Shown here piece by piece: positions 184 through 30,515 of a stretch of DNA of 64,000 nucleotides. Each line of letters starts with the position of its first letter. Positions within the stretch are counted from its first letter, which is position 1. This DNA is from Clavelina lepadiformis (taxonomy: Eukaryota; Chordata; Ascidiacea; Aplousobranchia; Clavelinidae). The notes under the pieces were generated by a model, which made no database searches, was not told the origin of the DNA, and saw only the letters and a program-made list of their open reading frames with translations. The stretch spans positions 19,036,501-19,100,500 of the forward strand of contig NC_135241.1 of the NCBI RefSeq assembly GCF_947623445.1. Reading direction: 5' to 3'. Both the position numbers and the translations under genes were made by a program.

Positions 184-1345
<1,162 letters not shown>

Positions 1346-2708
1346 CTAAAAAGTTAATATTAAAACAACTAGTTTAAAACATAGACACAACAATGCTGCA
1401 ATAGATTTTTACAAAAAACTTTTTATTGGCAAGGAAAATTACATATATATTCCAGTTTTCCGTACTTTCTGATCTCAAGTTGATAAATGGTACTACTAAG
1501 CAATATGAAAGTCTATTGTACCCTGCCATCTGAACTGGTATATACTATTTATTAATAAAATGGCATTTGTCTGCTTTCTTAATATCAGCGATTTATGATG
1601 ATATGTATACATTATACATTAAGTAAGCTACACATTCAGATCAAAACAAAGAATTTAGAAATATTCACCATAGTATTATCCATCTTTAGAGATTAGAATA
1701 AGCATATGATTACAGTGCTCTTGTTAAAATTACCCTACTTAAATATTGACTAAATTTTGAGTTAAACAAAAGCCTATCCATAAATCAATAGCTGATGAAA
1801 CAAGGCGTTGACAGAGAGAACATTCACAACACTGCTTTCCACAACAACTATGTTAGCACCACATATTCAAGCATATTGGGCTATAACTTGAAGTGATACA
1901 ATACATACCGGTACAAACAACTGAGACAAACTTGGAATTACAACAATTACAACAAGGTAAATATGTAGGATGCGTATTGAGTACTGATGGTACGACAAAG
2001 ATGATTTTACTAAAATTAAATAAAACCCAATAAAAAGTATTATATCTAATACATAGAAATTTTACGTAATTCTACAACAGTAATTTCCTAAAAAGATTAT
2101 CAAGAATAACAGTACATGTTGATGGTCGCCTCTGATTCTTCAAAATTCTTCTCAAAAAAAACAACAAAACAAATATATATAGTTTGAATAAGATCAATAG
2201 TAAAATAAAATAAAAAAGCATAAAATGGAATGTGACAAGGATTTGTTTCACTTTTTTCAAAGAGCCTGTTTTTCATTTAAAGCAGTTATTAAACCTGTTT
2301 TTTAAAGTTTACTTGGCTGAAATTGTTATGATGCTTACCACATATCATGAACACATCAGATTAAAACTATTTCAAAGAACAACCAGGAAAAACTATGACA
2401 GCTGATTCATACACATTGGATGTAAGGAAAAAAGGCCCAACAATAGGTTACATTTAAAACACGCATGCAGTTATTTTTTTGTTATTCAATTTAAGTTTTG
2501 TGTTATTCTAAAAACAATTATGACACTAGTTTTCAAAGATTGGTTTTGCTTTACAAACTTCTAGGAAATTAAAAAAAAACTTTGCTGAAACTGCGCAATG
2601 TTTATTGTGTACTGAAAATGTAAAGCTGTGCCATTGTCATAAATGACATTACTGATTACACAGATTACTGAAACAATTTTTGAATGAGATCCAGATTTAC
2701 AACCTTAC

Positions 2709-2771
2709 CTGTTGCGCAGAAAGTTTGCTATGTCCATACCAAGGTAGTTTTTGAATGTTTACGTGCAAACG
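2709..2771 (-). other. Possible upstream exon of the USP gene
   Basis: Read on the minus strand, an open stretch ending LPWYGHSKLSAQQ is followed by a good donor (CAG|gtaagg), and its phase matches the USP exon that starts at 1345. No AG acceptor or in-frame ATG lies between it and the in-frame stop just upstream, so its 5' boundary is unexplained. It could be a first exon with an unusual start, or chance. Confidence 0.35.
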
Positions 2772-2922
2772 TCATTACATTTTCACATTGCAAAAATATA
2801 ACACAAACATATAGGTTCAACTTGGAACATTTTTCTGCATAGGCTCTAAGCAGACCAGGGCTATTGCATGAAATCGTATTGTTAGCTCATAGCAGCATTA
2901 GCTATCATCTTAGGAAGAAAGA

Positions 2923-3312
2923 TCACTCTGCACAAGGAGCAGGTTGTGCATCATCCACTGTGTCTGTGCCATCACTTGGCACATCGTGTTTAACACGAAG
3001 TGGGGACACATAAAATGTCTTTTTATCACTTAAAATGTGTGCTCCAATTGGGCCAATCTCACAATCAGCACAAGCAAGGTATTTAATGTTCTCCACAGTA
3101 TTACAAAAGCCAACATTTTCAAATGCGAACATGTCCGACACTGTCCAGAATTCATATCCCTTTGCACCTTCTCCATCCGTTGTTTTCATTGCTGGCAAGA
3201 AAATTCCATCTGGGACTTCAGTCCATACGGCAGCATTTTCTAGAAGTATAACAGACCCACATTTTTCACATAAAATCTTTCCAGGATTTTTCTTAACTAG
3301 TGCTTCCGCCAT
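2923..3312 (-). CDS. RABIF: RABIF / MSS4 (DSS4 homologue), Rab-interacting zinc-binding factor
   Basis: An intron-less ORF of 129 aa; vertebrate MSS4 is about 123 aa. MSS4 binds nucleotide-free exocytic Rab GTPases and acts as a weak exchange factor or chaperone in the cytosol. Two zinc-binding CxxC knuckles are visible, C15/C18 (LCEKCGS) and C81/C84 (YLACADCE), with the family core between them (VPDGIFLPA, GYEFWTVSDMFAFENVGF, and IGPIGAH after the second knuckle). The ATG at 3310-3312 was chosen because the family start follows directly; an upstream in-frame extension of 14 codons looks like 5' UTR. The C-terminal tail (DTVDDAQPAPCAE) is lineage-specific. It sits head-to-tail with the USP gene about 150-200 bp downstream. 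Confidence 0.95.
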   Translation of the reverse strand: MAEALVKKNPGKILCEKCGSVILLENAAVWTEVPDGIFLPAMKTTDGEGAKGYEFWTVSDMFAFENVGFCNTVENIKYLACADCEIGPIGAHILSDKKTFYVSPLRVKHDVPSDGTDTVDDAQPAPCAE

Positions 3313-3354
3313 CGTAGGTGCTTGAGCAACTATATATTTTAAATATAAAATCAA

Positions 3355-5149
3355 TGCTAAAAAAGAATCAAATTCAACACAAAGAACAAGTTTTAACTAT
3401 GGATGTATCGATATATACATTTATATATAAAGCAACCCATCCAGCTTAAGTGTTAAAAAGTTATGCAAATAGGATATTTAACAGCGATTGAAACTACATA
3501 TCATAAATCATTTGGTAAACAACCTCTAATTCTAAAATTGTTGTCCCTACTTTGGCAAAGTCATCAAACTCCATCTTGCCAAAGTTGATAAATTTATAAC
3601 TAATATTGTATTCGGGTTTGTACGTGTCTTTCATTTAGCCAATACTCGGCGAATCTACTTGAGTTTGTGTTGGCCTATCCCTACTGACAATAACAAACAA
3701 TGGAAGTAAACTAAACACAATAAGTGTTCTTTTCCTAAGAAATAAAGTGCTGATCTTTAAAACTCAAAATAAGCCTTTAAGTCAGCATGATTGGATAACG
3801 ACATTGGCTTAATTGCATCACTACAATAGTGGCCAAATACTCGCATATGGTTGTACTGGGTCTGGTCGCAACTGGTTGTAAGTTTTTATGAGATCAACAA
3901 AATATTTCTTGGTTGTGTGGACTGTGGAGTGCAGATCACAGTATCAGTTAGCAACAATTTACTTTAAAATTTGAAATATAATCCTAATTTTTTCCCCATC
4001 ATGATATGATAGTTAAACCGTATAAGTCTATACTAAGTACAAATAGTGATGGCATAAGAGGGCCATGCATATTGTTTACGAAAAAGTGTTTCAGTACAAT
4101 TCAGAACCATCACTACAGTACAAGTCTTGCTCATTAGGTTTACTTCATTTGCTAGCAACCACACTTCAAGTGAAAGTGAAAACTTACTCAATGGGCTGTT
4201 ATTCACTGAATCTGTTATCATTGACCTAGGAACTTAACAGTAATGTAAAGATGATGATTTTGATTAAAATTCTGCAACAATATAACATATTATACTGATA
4301 ATGAATTTAGTAAATGGTAAAACTGCTAAAAGCCAGTCATTGACTTGTGAGCGAAAAGTTTGCATTTTTGAGAACACAGATTTATACAGAGAAAGAATCT
4401 ATGACAATATTTTATAAATCATTTTTATGAAAGAAAAATTTTACAAGAATCTCTAAATGCCTCTTTCCGGGAAGTGTTTTCATTTGTAACTTGTGTAGCC
4501 CACTCATATTTTGCTGTTGTTTTAGTTTGAAATATGACATGCATAAATTCTAAATAAGACACAGTTTTATTTAAACTCTAAACTTTAGAATTAACTTTAA
4601 ATTTGTCATTTCTTAAACTAAAAACTAAAAATCAATCAAGTCCCCCTTTTTTGGTAACAATAGCTAGCTGATAATGCAAACTTATTTCTTAAAAATTACC
4701 AATACACCGGTGGGTTACTGGTATGTAAGCAGTTCTGTAAGATAAACTTCTGAAAGTTATAGAAACAAAAGGCATATTTGGTATGGTAACAGAAGTTTAA
4801 ACCCAAATTTCTTTATAAAATACAGTGTATCGTAGGCTACTACACCAACGATGCCATTGAATATCTCATTAATATTGCATGTCTAAATTGTCTGCATATT
4901 ATTCTTTGAGGATATTAGCCATACATCAAAACATTTTCCTAATTTTAAACTACCACACCGCTGAACTGGTGGCTAGCTAATGAATCACAGGCAAACTGCA
5001 CACCACACGACTAATTCAGAAAGTTAGAAGTTACTTCAACCGTAGACATCTTTACATCTTGAGTTACGGCAGTACCGATATACTTTAACTGATGTGCAGG
5101 TTACATATTAGATATTAGCTTATTACAAACAAAAGCTTGTAACTAACAA
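3355..5149. other. Intergenic; contains a dispersed-repeat tail at 3530-3690
   Basis: No coding exon was recognised. About 3530-3690 matches 26404-26576 (see the repeat entries). The rest is AT-rich sequence without visible structure. Confidence 0.5.
3530..3690 (+). repeat. Dispersed repeat, copy A (end reads TATCCCTACTG)
   Basis: Shares an order of blocks with 26404-26576: TAAATTTATAA, TAATATTGTATTCGGGTT, CGGCGAATCTA, GTTTG and a terminal ATCCCTA. The rightmost ATCCCTA looks like a transposon terminus, but the left border and a target duplication were not found. Confidence 0.6.
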
Positions 5150-5325
5150 AGTGACTGTTTCACCGGTGTACGCTTATCAAAATTGCAAAGACACAATACC
5201 AGACCAAGCAGATTTCCATTGAAAGATTTATCACTCTTGTCTTGGACGAAGAAAATGAGAATTGCAGTGGTGAAATGTTTAGTGATTGGGGCGGAATGTT
5301 AAAGGTTCCGTGTTTAAATCTTGCC
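5150..5325 (+). repeat. tRNA-related SINE-like repeat, copy 1
   Basis: Starts AGTGACTGTTTCACCGGTGT and matches copy 2 at 5932-6110 through the head, the block GTTTATCACTCT/ATTTATCACTCT followed by TTGGACGA, and a tRNA-like tail. The tail, from about 5264 (GCAGTGGTGAAATG...), ends in GGTTCCGTGTTTAAATCTTG, which resembles a degenerate pol III B box. No gene-like tRNA fold can be drawn, so it is an old tRNA-derived insertion rather than a tRNA gene. Confidence 0.55.
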
Positions 5326-7510: not shown

Positions 7511-7904
7511 TTGGTTGTTATGTTTTGCCCAAAGAGATTTAAACACATGAGTAGAAACTTCTCTTTTGCGCATGACGTCATGTTTGTTTCTTTTATTCTC
7601 TTGGAGCATATTCTACTTTCTCCACGGTCACGGTTCACTACATAACAATAAACATGCAGACGACGACGATGATTTTCAGATCTGTTTGCTGCTGGAACAG
7701 ATTAGTCTTATTATTAGGGTGCAGTTATTGGGATCCATTGGGTGTTAATTTTAATTGAAATTAATTATTGAAATCAGGTGAGAGTTTTAGGTTCAGCAAT
7801 TAACTTAGTTTCAGTTCCTTGAACTGATAATGCTGCTGTTTTGTATCAAGGCATGGCTTAGCCTACTTGAGTTGCGCGGGAAGATTTTTTCGTTCACCAC
7901 ATTT
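7511..7904 (+). repeat. Left terminal inverted repeat of the THAP/C2H2 element
   Basis: Matches the reverse complement of 9587-9990 with only scattered substitutions and small indels, from AAAGAGATTTAAACACATGA inward to CGTTCACCACATTTA. Both arms keep a parallel 60-codon reading frame containing a run of Asp codons. The arm holds a perfect CRE palindrome and a decayed version of the first exon of the internal plus-strand gene (about 7690-7780). Confidence 0.9.
7571..7582. promoter_or_regulatory. CRE-type palindrome in the left inverted repeat
   Basis: CATGACGTCATG contains TGACGTCA, the full CREB/ATF consensus. It is preserved exactly in the other arm at 9910-9921. Position upstream of the decayed first exon fits a promoter role, which is an inference. 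Confidence 0.5.
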
Positions 7905-8041
7905 ATCTTCGACCAGGCAATTAGCAACTAAACTCATTACTCATTAGCATAGGCCTTATGTTGCAGGTGTTGTGTCATTAAAATAGGCTACTGAAAGTCT
8001 GATTTCAGATCTTGTTATTGTGGTGCAGTTGTTGGGATCTA

Positions 8042-8651
8042 ATGGATGTCAACTTGAAGTTAATTATTGAAATAGATTGTGACCCAGAAGACGATGCAGC
8101 AAACTTCATGTAAGATACGATATGCCTATTAATCAATTAGCCAACTGCTGTTGAGCTTGTCCTGTATGGCGGTCACCCAGAGTGTACGTTCTCGCCAATT
8201 TATAATAAACAGCCAAGCAAAACAACAAATTAATGTAAGTCGTAACGAGTATTTGAAGTAATACTGTACTGATATATTGATGTCATTTAATCTGATAATG
8301 AAAATATTTATTTGCAGATGTGGACAATGTTTGCATAACTGCACAAGTAATGAAACTTTGCTGGCTCATCAAAAAACTGCTCACGGTATATTTGTTTGAA
8401 ACTTATTTCATTTTGAGCTCTATCATTGGCAGATTCCGATTAAAAAAATCAAACAAACTTAATTTTACACTTGTCTTGCAGAATCTTCTTGCAATAATGT
8501 TACAAGAGAAAAGCTGATGGAATGGTGGGAAACAGTGGGTGGCGTTAAAACAGATCTAACTGCAGATGCGGTTAACTATTTTATGAAGCTATTTTCTTCG
8601 TACAGTTCACCGGATGAACTGTTTACCGGACTGAACCGGATATTAACGTAA
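8042..8651 (+). CDS. Small C2H2 zinc-finger protein within the TIR element
   Basis: Three exons (8042-8109, 8318-8385, 8482-8651) join in frame with AG/GT boundaries to give 101 aa, starting at ATG 8042 and ending at TAA 8649-8651. Residues 24-45 form one classical finger, C24-x2-C27-x12-H40-x4-H45 (core CGQCLHNC and LLAHQKTAH). The N-terminus is acidic (IDCDPEDDAA). The C-terminal part (KLMEWWETVGGVKTDL, SSPDELFTGLNRILT) matches no family I recognise. The region around exon 1 (about 8009-8075) is a diverged direct copy of a stretch in the terminal repeat at about 7685-7775; the repeat carries TTG or ATA where this exon has its ATG. Likely a nuclear DNA-binding protein by motif; function unknown. 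Confidence 0.6.
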
Positions 8652-8712
8652 ACTTCACAAAAACACACGACACAAAAAGACTGAGTTATATGCATTGTGT
8701 AGGTGCATCACA

Positions 8713-9405
8713 TTACATTTGTAGCTTCATTAGAATAGTTATAAGTAACATATTCTGGATTACCAGCTTTGTAATCGGTATGATACCTGCTTTAACAATG
8801 GCTGTCATGTCATCTGACATAATTTTATCTACCTCCACTTGCACCGTATCATCAGCTAACAGAGTCGAAACCTTAGCTTCTAATTCTCTAATGCTAATAA
8901 AGAATTACTTCATAACAACAAGACTATCTTAAATAATACTGTTTTATTTCTATCTTCTGGCATTGCTCAATCTACATATAGTTAAGTGTAAAAAGCACAG
9001 CTACTGACCCTGACAATCTTGCGAATGAGACTATTACTAGTAAATTTAATGAAGTTCTGCATCAAACCATCTCATGGAAAACAAACACTGCATCAAACGC
9101 TAGATATGCCATTACATTAAATATCTTTCCTCAATACACTAGTTACACTGCATGTAAGTCTATGTAGAACAAATTTTACTTAAAACAATGTCAGATCTTT
9201 CAAAATGCACTTCACACATTTTCACAGCATCTCGAGCAAATAGATTTTTTATGTGCTCGTCGCTTCTGCAAGCCAGCACGATACACTCCAACCTTTCTGC
9301 CCAGCTTTCCTTCTCCTTTTTTACAAATTTTCTCGAAGGTATCTTAAACAGAGTCACGGCAGGTGACCTGTTGTTGCACATTGGTAAACAGCACAAATTT
9401 GCCAT
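8713..9405 (-). CDS. Small THAP-domain protein within the TIR element
   Basis: Two exons (9405-9180 and 8879-8713) give 130 aa; a donor at 8764 would allow a further unseen exon instead. Residues 1-75 are a THAP (C2CH) zinc domain: C5, C10, C64 and H67 (CEVHFERSD), with W35 and the Phe-x-x-Pro element FKIPS in place. The second exon gives a heptad-like acidic segment (AKVSTLLADD, VQVEVDKIMSDDM), as expected of the leucine-zipper region that follows THAP in P-element-type transposases. No RNase H-like catalytic region follows. It is convergent with the C2H2 gene. It may bind the element's own ends, or be the remaining N-terminus of a transposase. Confidence 0.65.
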
Positions 9406-9586
9406 TATTTCAGACTATTTAGCTTATTTCAATAACTTAAAGCCTGCAACATAAGACCTGTACTATTGAGTCTTAATCTGTAAAGTTTTTATTCTGCGCG
9501 TGGAGCGAAATTTTATGCGCAGATGAAACAATACAATATGACTCGGTCTATCTAAATTTTTCATCCATTCATTTTATTTTTCACCT

Positions 9587-9990
9587 TAAATGTGGTGAAC
9601 GAAAAAATCTTCCCGCGCAACTCAAGTAGGCTAAGCCATGCCTTGATACAAAACAGCAGCATTATCAGTTCAAGGAACTGAAAATAAGTTAATTGCTGAA
9701 CCTAAAACTCTCACCTGATTTCATTAATTAATTTCAATTAAAGTTAACACCTATTGGATCCCAACAACTGCACCCTAATAATAAGACTAATCTGTTCCAG
9801 CAGCAAACAGATCTGAAAATCATCGTCGTCGTCTGCATGTTTATTGTTATGTAGTGAACCGTGACCGTGGAGAAAGTAAAATATGCTCCAAGAGAATAAA
9901 AGAAACAAACATGACGTCATGCGCAAAAGAGAAGTTTCTACTCATGTGTTTAAATCTCTTTGGTTTTGCCATAACAAGGTTAGCACCAAT
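9587..9990 (-). repeat. Right terminal inverted repeat of the THAP/C2H2 element
   Basis: Inverted partner of 7511-7904. The outermost 25 bases differ by a small insertion (AACAAGGTTAGCACCAAT on this side). High identity between the arms suggests recent insertion or arm-to-arm conversion. Confidence 0.9.
9910..9921. promoter_or_regulatory. CRE-type palindrome in the right inverted repeat
   Basis: Same 12-bp palindrome as at 7571-7582, read inward toward the minus-strand THAP gene. Confidence 0.5.
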
Positions 9991-27384: not shown

Positions 27385-30300
27385 ATGAAAGATATGGAAG
27401 CTAATGAAGATTCATATGACCGCCCCGAAAGACGAACCGAGTTGATAAATTTACCTTGGTTAGTTGCGTTTTTACTACCTGTGATTTTTGTAGCTGCATT
27501 CTCTGGTTATGCCTTTCAAAGTTGCTTTCCCTCACGTTTTTACTTGGGAATTGATTCCTGGGGTAATATATGTGGGGCAGGTAGCGAAGTGAGAACATAT
27601 GTTGCTGGTGTCAATGGCAGTGGAAAAGTAATGTCCGAACAACCCTATCTCTGGCTAGTTGGAATCAACCAAATGAATGCTGCAGATGGCGAAATTGTGT
27701 ACTGCGACCCGGTCGTTGGCGTACCATCAGCATCGAACATATCTACAATCAGTGTTTGCGTTAAAACTTGCCCCACGATTGGCTTAAATGACTCCAGCTT
27801 GCATGAAGATTGTAAAGCTGTTTTACATGAAAGTAGCTACGATAGACTGACATTTTCAGTAGCTTATGAGAAATGCCAACAGCTGGTTGCCGCATCGTAC
27901 GCCACAAACCAAACGTGCACATCGTTGAGGCAAGTTTTTAGCGTATTTTTAAAAATTCTGGGCTTAGATACCAGTACTTTTACTACTACTTAGGTACTTT
28001 TTTTGCTATTTCGTATCAAGTTACCCACAATTTTACAAAATGATTTTAATTTTGATGTAGTACGATCAATACGACAAGAATGACGGAAATTTTGGGTCGA
28101 TGTCTTCCTTTGGATTTGTTACAAAACAGATACGTCTCCATTTCCAGCTATATTTCGGTTTGGCATTACGCAGTTTACGATTTGTTGTCAAATGCAGATG
28201 TCGTTGGATCATGCGTAGTGCTGGTGATGGCAGCTTGCGTTGTGATAAGTGTATTGGTCATAAAATATCCCCAATTTGCTTGCTTTTTGTGCTACGGAAC
28301 AAGCATTTTCCTTTCCTTGTCATCTTGCATCTATCACATCGTGCGTGCCATTCGTAGTACCGGTGATGAATTTATGATCAGCATGTTTACAAGCGTGCTT
28401 TCTGTGAGTGCTACTTTGATATTGCTATATCTTTTTATAAGAAACTATCAAGCTGCCAGAATGTGCAAGGGAATGTTAATAGAAACTTCTAAGTGCTTGC
28501 GAACTTTGCCTAAGTTGTTAAGTCAGCCTTTGTTGACACTGGTTCTGTTTTTCATAGCCAACTTGTTATTAGTGTTATACATATTTTACGCTTATAGTTG
28601 CCAATCATTGATTGCAGCCAATGATTTCCAAACTGTTATCTATTCGCCATCCGTACCAATATTAGCTTCACCCGGAGTCGTTAGTGTTGTTATTTTGTTT
28701 TACCTATGGTGTATCAACATATTTAAGACAATGCAGCAAGCTGTAGTGGCAGGCGCCGTGTATCAGTGGTACTACGCCCGAGTTAAATTCAAACTACTTC
28801 ATCCTATCACCAAGTCGTTGCGTGCTCTTCTGCTATATAACTTAGGCAGCGTCATTGGCTGCTCTTTCAATGGAAGCATACAGAGCAAAATTGTACGTTA
28901 CATTTTATCGTTCAAAAGACAAAACAAAGTTGAAGATGTCAATATAAATAATGAACACAGGTTCCGCTCATTGACATCATATTTATCGCCCATCGCTCCA
29001 GCATCAATTGGGATCTATGGGTTCGTGAGATCAACATGCCTCTGTGGCGATAAACATTTACATTTTGCTTATTCCCAAAATGTTCAAATTCCATCTTCAC
29101 AAGTTCTGGTTAAAAAAAAGTCGTCCCAAATCTTGCAAACAGAAGCACTTGGGTTATACAAAACTATTCAAATCGGTCATTTTGCCGCAAGATGGTGCTT
29201 CAGATCTTGTCACCTTGCGTTTGTGTGTTCGATTGTTACAATCTACGTTGTCTTAATCGAGTACAAAGGATTTACAGTCTACGTCAAGTTGGTACCGTTT
29301 GCAACGCTACTCTTTGTGTCGCACTTTATCTGCGACGTATGTATGAGTATCATGACCTCAACAATAGACGCCATCGGAGTGTGTTTTTACGAAGATTTGT
29401 GCAGAAACGATGGACAAATTAATTTATTTTACGGAAGTAGAGGACTGGTATACTGGGTGACTGGCGTAAAGCTGTCTGAAACTTCTACGTATGGTGGATT
29501 GAATCGACTGAAGAAAAAAGAGGCACAGGAAGAGAGGCAGAGGAAGAGAAGAGAAGTCCAGCGTTTGCGAGAGCAAGAAGCCAAAGCTAGAATTCGGAAT
29601 CGGAAACAGGAACAAATAAGGAGGCCCCGTTTGATTGAGAGCAGATCGCTGGCCGCGAAAGTGAAGAGTGCATATCGAATGAATCACTTAGATACAGGGT
29701 TGATAGGACCAGGGGAAAAAAAGTTGAATTTCAATGTTAGTGAAGACTATGCTTTTCCTGAGATTGACAGTTCTATTTGGAAAGATTTTCAGGAAGACTT
29801 GCCTGAAATTTATCAGGAAAATGAAAGAGATTCTCCAATGGTCGCGAAAATGGATCAGTTTCAACCCGACGAGGAAGAAATCAGCAAATCTTTCAGTACG
29901 GAACTTTCGGAGGATTTAGCAAAGGAAGAAGAAAAAAAATCCAACGTAAGCATTTCGCTGAGTATGCAAGAAACTTCAACCCAAAGAAAATCGTTTATAG
30001 ATTTCGGATTACCAATACTTAAAAAAAGCATAGCAGAGACCAACAACGAATCAAATCAGGAAAATGAAAGAAGAGATTCTGAAGTGATGGCGCAAATGAG
30101 TCAGTTTCATCCCGAAAACGAAATTAGCCAATCGTTCAGTACGGAAATCCTCGAGGATTTAACAAACGAAGAAGAAGAAGAAAAGTTTGCCAAAAGCACT
30201 CGGGTGGATGCGGAAGGATCTCCATCTCCCGGAAAACCATTTATAGATTTTGGGATGCCGATATTCCACAAAAACACGGCGGATAATAGCCAAGAAAACG

Positions 30301-30515
30301 AAACGGGGAGTGCTGCATTTCAGAATACGCGAGATACTTTCGGATGGCCTAAAACGGTTATCAAAGCGGCGCAAACTTTCTTTCCGAAAGCAATTGAGAA
30401 GCGAACCACGTTTCGACAAATCAGGACAGTACGACATGAAGATGTTTCAAATGAGAATCTTGATGAAAAAACTAAATACGAAAAATCTATTTGGAATGAA
30501 AGCATGGGCTGGTGA
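27385..30515 (+). CDS. Choline transporter-like protein (SLC44/CTL family) with long C-terminal tail
   Basis: A multipass plasma-membrane protein of the CTL family, whose members move choline or related solutes. Two exons (27385-27929, 28061-30515) give 3000 nt, 999 aa; the intron starts with GC (AG|gcaagt), and only that donor keeps the family frame. Family marks: an N-terminal TM (about 26-46) followed by LGIDSWGNICG, a Cys-rich extracellular loop with Asn-x-Ser/Thr sites, LGRCLP, about nine more TMs, QQAVVAGAVYQWYYAR, YNLGSVIGCSFNGSIQ, and the C-terminal signature DAIGVCFYEDLCRNDGQ. Usual family length is about 650-720 aa. Here an extra ~340-residue hydrophilic tail follows: a basic coiled coil (about 661-715), then a twofold acidic repeat (about 768-928). 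Confidence 0.9.
29817..30297 (+). repeat. Internal tandem duplication in the SLC44-like tail
   Basis: Two ~80-residue units in tandem. Unit 1 has ENERDSPMVAKMDQF, SKSFSTELSEDL and KSFIDFGLPILKK. Unit 2 has ENERRDSEVMAQMSQF, SQSFSTEILEDL and KPFIDFGMPIFHK. DNA similarity is still visible, for example in CAGGAAAATGAAAGA and TTTCAGTACGGAA-type blocks. Confidence 0.85.

Follow-up and report, generated by a model that had tools for sequence, protein, structure and literature searches.

What kind of mobile element encloses two small convergent DNA-binding-protein frames between long inverted arms, and from what did it descend? The question is raised by a locus at positions 7511 to 9990 of a 64,000-nucleotide stretch of the genome of the ascidian Clavelina lepadiformis (contig NC_135241.1, positions 19,036,501 to 19,100,500; the whole stretch is here referred to as the window). 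A preliminary description, made from the sequence alone, had read it as a non-autonomous P-related DNA transposon in which a C2H2 protein of 101 amino acids (aa) and a THAP protein of 130 aa would be two working products. The locus holds a transposon copy of 2433 bp (window 7530-9962) that is bounded by terminal inverted repeats of 376 bp and flanked by an 8-bp target-site duplication. We found that this copy is non-autonomous and arose by internal deletion from a ~6.24-kb cut-and-paste transposon of the P superfamily. Very probably, the transposase of this parent is split over two convergent genes and the window copy is a deletion derivative of that split-transposase element. Gene A is predicted to encode the THAP domain and the catalytic RNase H domain with its GTP-binding insertion; gene B appears to encode the missing C-terminal domain (CTD), preceded by a C2H2-pattern finger and then a middle region, and the homology of that domain is supported by the comparisons given below.

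The long inverted arms of the preliminary description were confirmed. They lie at 7515-7905 and 9587-9977 and are 97% complementary over 391 nt; within them, the exact terminal inverted repeats (7530-7905 and 9587-9962) span 376 bp with 7 mismatches, and the arm bases beyond these include the target-site duplication GTTTTGCC (7522-7529 and 9963-9970). Relatives were sought within the C. lepadiformis genome (209 Mb, 95 contigs); none were confirmed in viral contigs. A left-arm search at E <= 0.001 gave 115 candidates, of which the best 40 were scored, and the left arm had at least 67 genome matches, 42 of them long (at least 526 bits) and 25 short and secondary (below 65 bits). Two terminal arms were present at 30 of the 31 loci examined beyond the window and one arm at the remaining locus, L038. 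The analysed set of this family (family 1) comprised 30 copies with both termini, namely 29 loci and the window; L038 and L035, the latter with a truncated second arm, were left out, L026 was retained with a left arm of just 68 bp but an intact terminus, a nested partial copy in L015 was not counted, and L031 entered the count once despite its additional right arm. All 30 copies, ranging in length from 1032 to 6268 bp, were flanked by perfect target duplications, which measured 8 bp in the window copy and 7 bp in each of the other 29. Target duplications of 7 bp occur in some P families. In the sections of the cited papers covered here, 8-bp duplications are given for P elements of Drosophila and Anopheles (PMC7776569, PMC1562414), internally deleted derivatives are described as typical of P elements (PMC7776569) and P-related sequences are reported from Ciona (PMC1562414). 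The left arms of the window copy and of five long copies were 98.1 to 100% identical to the arm of the 6236-bp copy L019, an identity that suggests recent movement of the family. As a separate observation, the duplications of family 1 tend to GTYTGAC (29 sites, L009-L039 without L035 and L038), and 17 of the 29 end in C.

Gene A lies on the minus strand in the window orientation and comprises seven predicted exons encoding 773 aa. These exons were drawn by hand from splice signals and phases, and all exons of both genes are predictions. The RNaseH_N and GTP-binding-domain models of Pfam scored above their cut-offs on exon 7 (PF21787, 67.1 bits; PF21788, 32.7 bits), as did the THAP model on spliced exons 1-2, and the RNase H C-terminal model fell under its own (PF21789, 15.7 bits with a cut-off of 24). 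The sole significant PDB match of the exon-7 frame was the Drosophila P transposase (6p5a_A, E 5.3e-17). Catalytic residues were placed at D379, D470 and E710 of the 773 aa; D470 and E710 align with D303 and E531 of the Drosophila protein, and D379 was assigned by motif only. Judged by its RNase H, GTP-binding domain, THAP domain and target duplication, the parent is a member of the P superfamily: the RNase H domain is interrupted by the GTP-binding domain and carries the D-D-E residues, the THAP domain is N-terminal, and inverted repeats are flanked by 7-8-bp duplications. What gene A does not have is the CTD that single-protein P transposases carry in the same polypeptide as RNase H. Past the catalytic Glu710 only 63 aa remain before the stop codon, and the predicted protein ends where the CTD should begin. 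Non-synonymous divergence (dN) was lower than synonymous divergence (dS) in six of seven gene A pairs (for example 0.0033 and 0.0209 for L018-L036). Coding columns were scored as intact if the aligned columns held no gap, insertion or stop, a measure of the coding columns and not of the splice sites of individual copies; by this measure gene A was intact in 2 of the 30 copies, gene B in 16 and both in 1. No conclusion about selection was drawn from 16 versus 2, because gene A is far longer (span ~3.85 kb, against ~1.21 kb for gene B).

Gene B runs on the plus strand, convergent to gene A, and its three predicted exons encode 301 aa: a short N-terminus, a finger of the pattern C-x2-C-x12-H-x4-H, a middle region that had no convincing relatives in a Pfam search, and a CTD-like domain. 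Against Pfam, the finger matched two C2H2 models below cut-off (E 0.74 and 2.8). The predicted start codons of L019 lie ~137 bp (gene B) and ~182 bp (gene A) inside the respective terminal repeat, and since both are near the repeats, both promoters are probably located in or beside the same repeated sequence.

The same layout was found in a second family (F2, locus L040), which has terminal repeats of 31 nt (97%) and the 7-bp duplication GTCACAC at its ends. Its RNase H is 60% identical to that of family 1 over 329 residues, and its convergent gene B is identical in 104 of 293 columns (35.5%), with the same finger spacing, the same first two intron phases by sequence reading and one extra intron. 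Four loci of three other P families served as controls, L049 being a shorter member of the L047 family that was not used in the shuffle test; the RNase H domains of families 1 and 2 are 23-26% identical to those of L046, L047 and L048. In L046 and L048, CTD-motif sequence (YIAGYV/YISGYL and KIRLYHLGKEYNE/TIRFLTYGQHYTK) lies on the RNase H strand after the catalytic region, spread over two reading frames in each. Genome-wide, 82 RNaseH_N matches were compared with 61 listed gene B places, some of them merged and short N-terminal pieces left out. At least 36 of the 82 had a listed gene B match within 6 kb; the two were convergent in 35 cases and not in one (gap 2.1 kb).

The assignment of the C-terminal part of gene B rests on profile comparisons, in which we took 6p5a_B, a 135-aa chain whose record names P transposase only, to be the Drosophila P CTD. 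A profile of the gene B C-terminus (A2) ranked this chain first of 19 PDB matches (E 0.098), and gene B and 6p5a_B share two colinear motifs, YIGGYILQKL/YIAGYVIKKL and FYVKIRCYQKANHLN/FYFKIRIYFRIKYFN. A linked-CTD profile built from Drosophila, L046 and L048 scored 38.0 bits on gene B of family 1 (in this test a 296-aa sequence, five residues short between the middle region and the CTD) and 22.7 bits on gene B of family 2, and none of 5000 shuffles reached either score. In the reverse test, a gene B profile scored 20.8 bits on L046 and 14.9 bits on L048, again reached by none of 5000 shuffles each. When L036 and the family 2 element were scanned in all six frames, the CTD was placed on the strand of gene B only (the opposite strand of L036 gave at most 3.1 bits, E 0.14), and the linked-CTD profile gave no match to gene A. 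The last 40 residues of gene B are basic in both families. Taken as sequence comparisons, these results well support homology between the C-terminus of gene B and the P CTD.

Several results weigh against the split reading. Neither of the two motifs is significant alone (independent E values of 27 and 12), and with a longer profile (A1, from gene B of both families; 25 matches) ribosomal eS26 chains (E 0.088) ranked above 6p5a_B (E 0.47). Single-sequence PDB searches of gene B gave no CTD match; the best hit was an ion channel at E 0.24 and, in another such search, a designed repeat protein at E 0.0082. The Drosophila CTD itself is a weak match (E 0.098 in the PDB search; 14.6 bits with the gene B profile of the reverse test, a score reached by 2 of 5000 shuffles), and on L047, from an 860-aa family, the latter profile scored 0.1 bits, a value reached by 1817 of 5000 shuffles. 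AlphaFold models of gene B predict a helical domain at low confidence (pLDDT 49.8 and 40.0). There was no clear purifying selection on gene B in family 1 (single-copy variants, 40 non-synonymous, 3 stop and 12 synonymous; shared variants, 10 non-synonymous and 6 synonymous), and for gene A the pair L019-L018 had dN above dS. Finally, 46 of the 82 RNaseH_N matches had no gene B among the matches listed within 6 kb; four such loci were examined. Two further scores may be added here: the linked-CTD profile gave 10.3 bits on L047, and the Pfam search of gene B returned a single phage-integrase model, in 2 of 9 rows and with E 0.019 at best, which was taken as chance.

Compared with L019, the window copy lacks the stretches ~1095-3725 and ~4128-5311. 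Its features, in window coordinates, are as follows.

7522-7529, no strand: left target-site duplication GTTTTGCC; the 8-mers at the two ends are identical, the other 29 analysed copies having perfect 7-mers.
7530-7905, plus strand: left terminal inverted repeat, 376 bp, starting CAAAGAGATTTAAAC, from the arm comparison.
8042-8109, plus strand: gene B exon 1, intact (MDVNLKLIIEIDCDPEDDAANF and part of the following codon), with a predicted phase 2 join.
8318-8385, plus strand: gene B exon 2, intact, with the C2H2-pattern finger CGQCLHNCTSNETLLAHQKTAH; a finger of the same spacing occurs in the second family, and the match is below the Pfam cut-off.
8482-8651, plus strand: gene B exon 3, truncated; native to ~8624, followed by filler and the tail TGLNRILT, with the CTD part deleted (compared with L019 953-1722).
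8625-8639, no strand: deletion junction 1, with ~2.63 kb gone (L019 ~1095 to 3725) and a 14-15-bp filler resembling the adjacent CCGGATGAACTG.
8787-8893, minus strand: remnant of gene A exon 3 (SIRELEAKVSTLLADDTVQVEVDKIMSDDMTAIVKA), perhaps a dimerization helix; L019 3979-3873, placed in the window by offset.
9037-9042, no strand: deletion junction 2, with ~1.18 kb gone (L019 ~4128 to 5311); the two sides overlap by 6 bp in the BLAST alignment and by 3 bp exactly.
9180-9405, minus strand: gene A exon 1, coding for the first 75 aa, which include most of the THAP domain; the deletion has removed exon 2 and with it the AVPTL end.
9587-9962, minus strand: right terminal inverted repeat, 376 bp, from the arm comparison.
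9963-9970, no strand: right target-site duplication GTTTTGCC, matching the left end.

The 101-aa frame (ATG at 8042, joins 8109/8318 and 8385/8482) is open and ends just past the filler of junction 1. The 130-aa frame (ATG at 9405, join 9180/8879) is also open; it keeps gene A exon 1 and part of exon 3 and needs a non-native splice acceptor. On this frame the Pfam THAP model (PF05485) matched positions 1-62 of 87 (26.4 bits), against 1-86 of 87 (36.1 bits) on the spliced exons 1-2 of the parental gene A. The two convergent frames of the preliminary description, with their consistent phases, are thus open as drawn, on predicted splice sites, and the interior lacks RNase H, as it had noted, because that part has been deleted. 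Given the deletion junctions and the lost exon 2, both short frames are therefore remnants, and the copy itself is an ordinary defective derivative. Its classification as a non-autonomous P-related transposon held, supported by its ends, the target duplications, the many copies and the longer transposase-coding relatives; the longer relative that the description had looked to for support exists in the ~6.24-kb elements with THAP, RNase H and GTP-binding domains. It had also denied that the element was a simple miniature inverted-repeat transposable element (MITE), and rightly so: coding remnants are kept, the form with both junctions occurred only in the window among the 42 matches listed, and the parent is longer and coding. 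Both a simple MITE and a local inversion-duplication were ruled out by copy number, target duplications and this parent. Having kept both ends, the window copy could be mobile solely when another copy supplies the proteins. Elsewhere in the genome, two 1792-bp copies (L027 and L029) at different places have seemingly the same internal deletion, so this short derivative may itself have moved.

Two observations concern the terminal repeats of the window copy. A 54-bp stretch of the left repeat (7706-7759) recurs with 78% identity at 8010-8063, a segment that lies partly ahead of gene B exon 1 and runs into it; it looks as though part of the exon 1 region had been copied into the terminal repeat. 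Each repeat also contains the perfect palindrome TGACGTCA (7573-7580 and 9912-9919), a CRE/ATF-type site.

How might the two genes of the parent work together? In the Drosophila strand-transfer complex, according to the sections covered, the CTD is all-helical, is tethered by a disordered linker, packs between RNase H and another subunit's GTP-binding domain, and contacts donor and target DNA with a basic helix toward the target; a 66-kDa product that lacks the C-terminal third acts as a repressor (PMC7776569). A domain that is held on a disordered linker and packed between subunits would be well placed to work as a separate protein. From this placement, together with the helical prediction and the basic tail of gene B, we infer that proteins A and B jointly form the active transposase. 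Each gene would have its start a short way inward from a terminal repeat of its own, the two 376-bp repeats being nearly identical. Protein A would bind and cut the element ends, and protein B, which its finger may help bring to the element, would dock between two subunits, at the RNase H domain of the one and the GTP-binding domain of the other, and hold donor and target DNA. Transposition would then need both proteins, and protein A alone would be inactive or repressive, resembling the Drosophila 66-kDa repressor. Taken furthest, this describes an obligate two-subunit P transposase whose CTD was detached, transferred to the opposite strand, fused to a C2H2-pattern finger and expressed from the other terminal repeat, with A as built-in repressor and B as licensing switch, in a split layout that arose before two families, their catalytic cores now 60% identical, diverged; we regard the chances for and against this combined proposal as evenly balanced.

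The alternative that survives best is that gene B is a CTD-derived regulator, either an inhibitor or a targeting factor, and that gene A needs no gene B for its activity. In favour of this, a CTD made as a free protein could act as a competitor, the finger points to DNA targeting, and more copies have an open gene B than an open gene A (16 versus 2 of 30), though gene B is much shorter; however, the six-frame scan found no other CTD in the element, and in the part of the Drosophila study covered the CTD touches both DNAs of the complex (PMC7776569). We consider this alternative unlikely. Somewhat less probable still is that the window copy acts in the manner of the Drosophila KP element, making a truncated protein of THAP domain and dimerization region that poisons transposition. 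Repressors of the KP type combine a complete THAP domain and a dimerization region in a truncated protein, and in the window copy the THAP domain is incomplete (1-62 of 87) and exon 2 is deleted. Moreover, the native acceptor yields a frameshift by sequence reading, and no second copy of this form was present among the 42 matches listed. On the other side, exon 1, with most of the THAP domain, and exon 3, perhaps with the dimerization helix, both persist, and an alternative acceptor allows an in-frame join between them, and the 207-aa KP protein of internally deleted P elements provides a precedent as a repressor in Drosophila, in the section covered (PMC7776569).

That gene B might be a captured host gene was entertained after the null Pfam and PDB searches. 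On this view, or if it were an unrelated accessory protein, its likeness to the CTD would be due to chance, and the unconvincing Pfam and single-sequence searches and a direct Drosophila match no better than E 0.098 are in its favour; the linked-CTD profile scores against 5000 shuffles, the colinear motifs and the lack of a CTD in gene A make it very unlikely. Least credible of all is the proposal of the preliminary description that the short C2H2 and THAP proteins of the window copy are functional and serve to bind the ends or to regulate transposition, since, open and consistent in phase as both frames are, both are truncated at the deletion junctions, the THAP domain lacks its C-terminal end with its C-terminal box, and a search for both junctions (103 candidates, best 40 scored) gave no second copy running through them, and hence none of the several copies with the same two short genes that the description had foreseen, besides the window itself among the 42 matches listed. 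The split transposase remains the reading we prefer for the parent.

A few observations concern the surroundings of other copies and the rest of the window. At L013 and L014 (C8:17837300-17850500), two family 1 elements and an F2-type end stand in a row with the same 7-mer, GTCTGAC, between each; these two GTCTGAC duplications are neighbours and not independent. The family 1 element at L027 also adjoins an F2-type end, with CTCTCAC and then CAACGATATAAAG, and insertion at precisely the point where another P element ends does not look random. At L015 (locus position ~978), one family 1 element lies inside the terminal repeat of another, with the duplication GCCTAGC. Farther along the window, 27385-27993 and 28080-30515 hold two long plus-strand open frames of 202 and 811 aa, which have the look of membrane proteins by eye and are perhaps a single host gene.

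Among known systems, the Drosophila P element shares with family 1 the THAP domain, the DDE RNase H domain with its GTP-binding insertion, the CTD, short target duplications and deleted copies. Its CTD lies inside the same 87-kDa protein, its repeats are 31 bp and its duplications 8 bp in the sections covered (PMC7776569), whereas in family 1 the CTD would be a separate convergent gene, the repeats are 376 bp and the duplications mostly 7 bp. Galileo, a member of the P superfamily in Drosophila, resembles family 1 in its unusually long terminal inverted repeats and its THAP transposase; compared by description, the part of the source covered presents a single transposase and mentions no second gene (PMC3688188). 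The zebrafish P-like elements and THAP9 are, like family 1, chordate P-type transposases with internally deleted copies, and differ in having one protein that includes the CTD, 13-bp repeats and 8-bp duplications, as given in the sections covered (PMC7776569, PMC10983969). In the literature covered, the role assigned to the CTD in P transposase rests on one cryo-electron microscopy complex. A natural split, if true, would make that role directly testable, with excision and integration separable by adding or omitting protein B, and would provide a two-part tool with one half usable as a control switch. No description of a CTD on a separate convergent gene was found in the open PMC literature; subscription papers and Repbase lay outside this scope, and an earlier description is possible there.

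If true, the split would also show a route from a one-protein cut-and-paste transposase to a two-gene system such as that of the RAG-like transposons. RAG-like transposons have a different catalytic protein, and their second subunit is not known to be a domain split off from the first. With two convergent genes, RAG1L and RAG2L, they are nearest to family 1 in working layout as far as the source section goes (PMC7204232). On this evidence, the parent family is a P element with a split transposase, in an unusual and apparently undescribed layout. It differs in this from PIF/Harbinger, where the second protein is a Myb-like accessory protein and not a piece of the transposase. PIF/Harbinger elements likewise carry a pair of open reading frames, of which one encodes the transposase, in the section of the source covered (PMC5543537).

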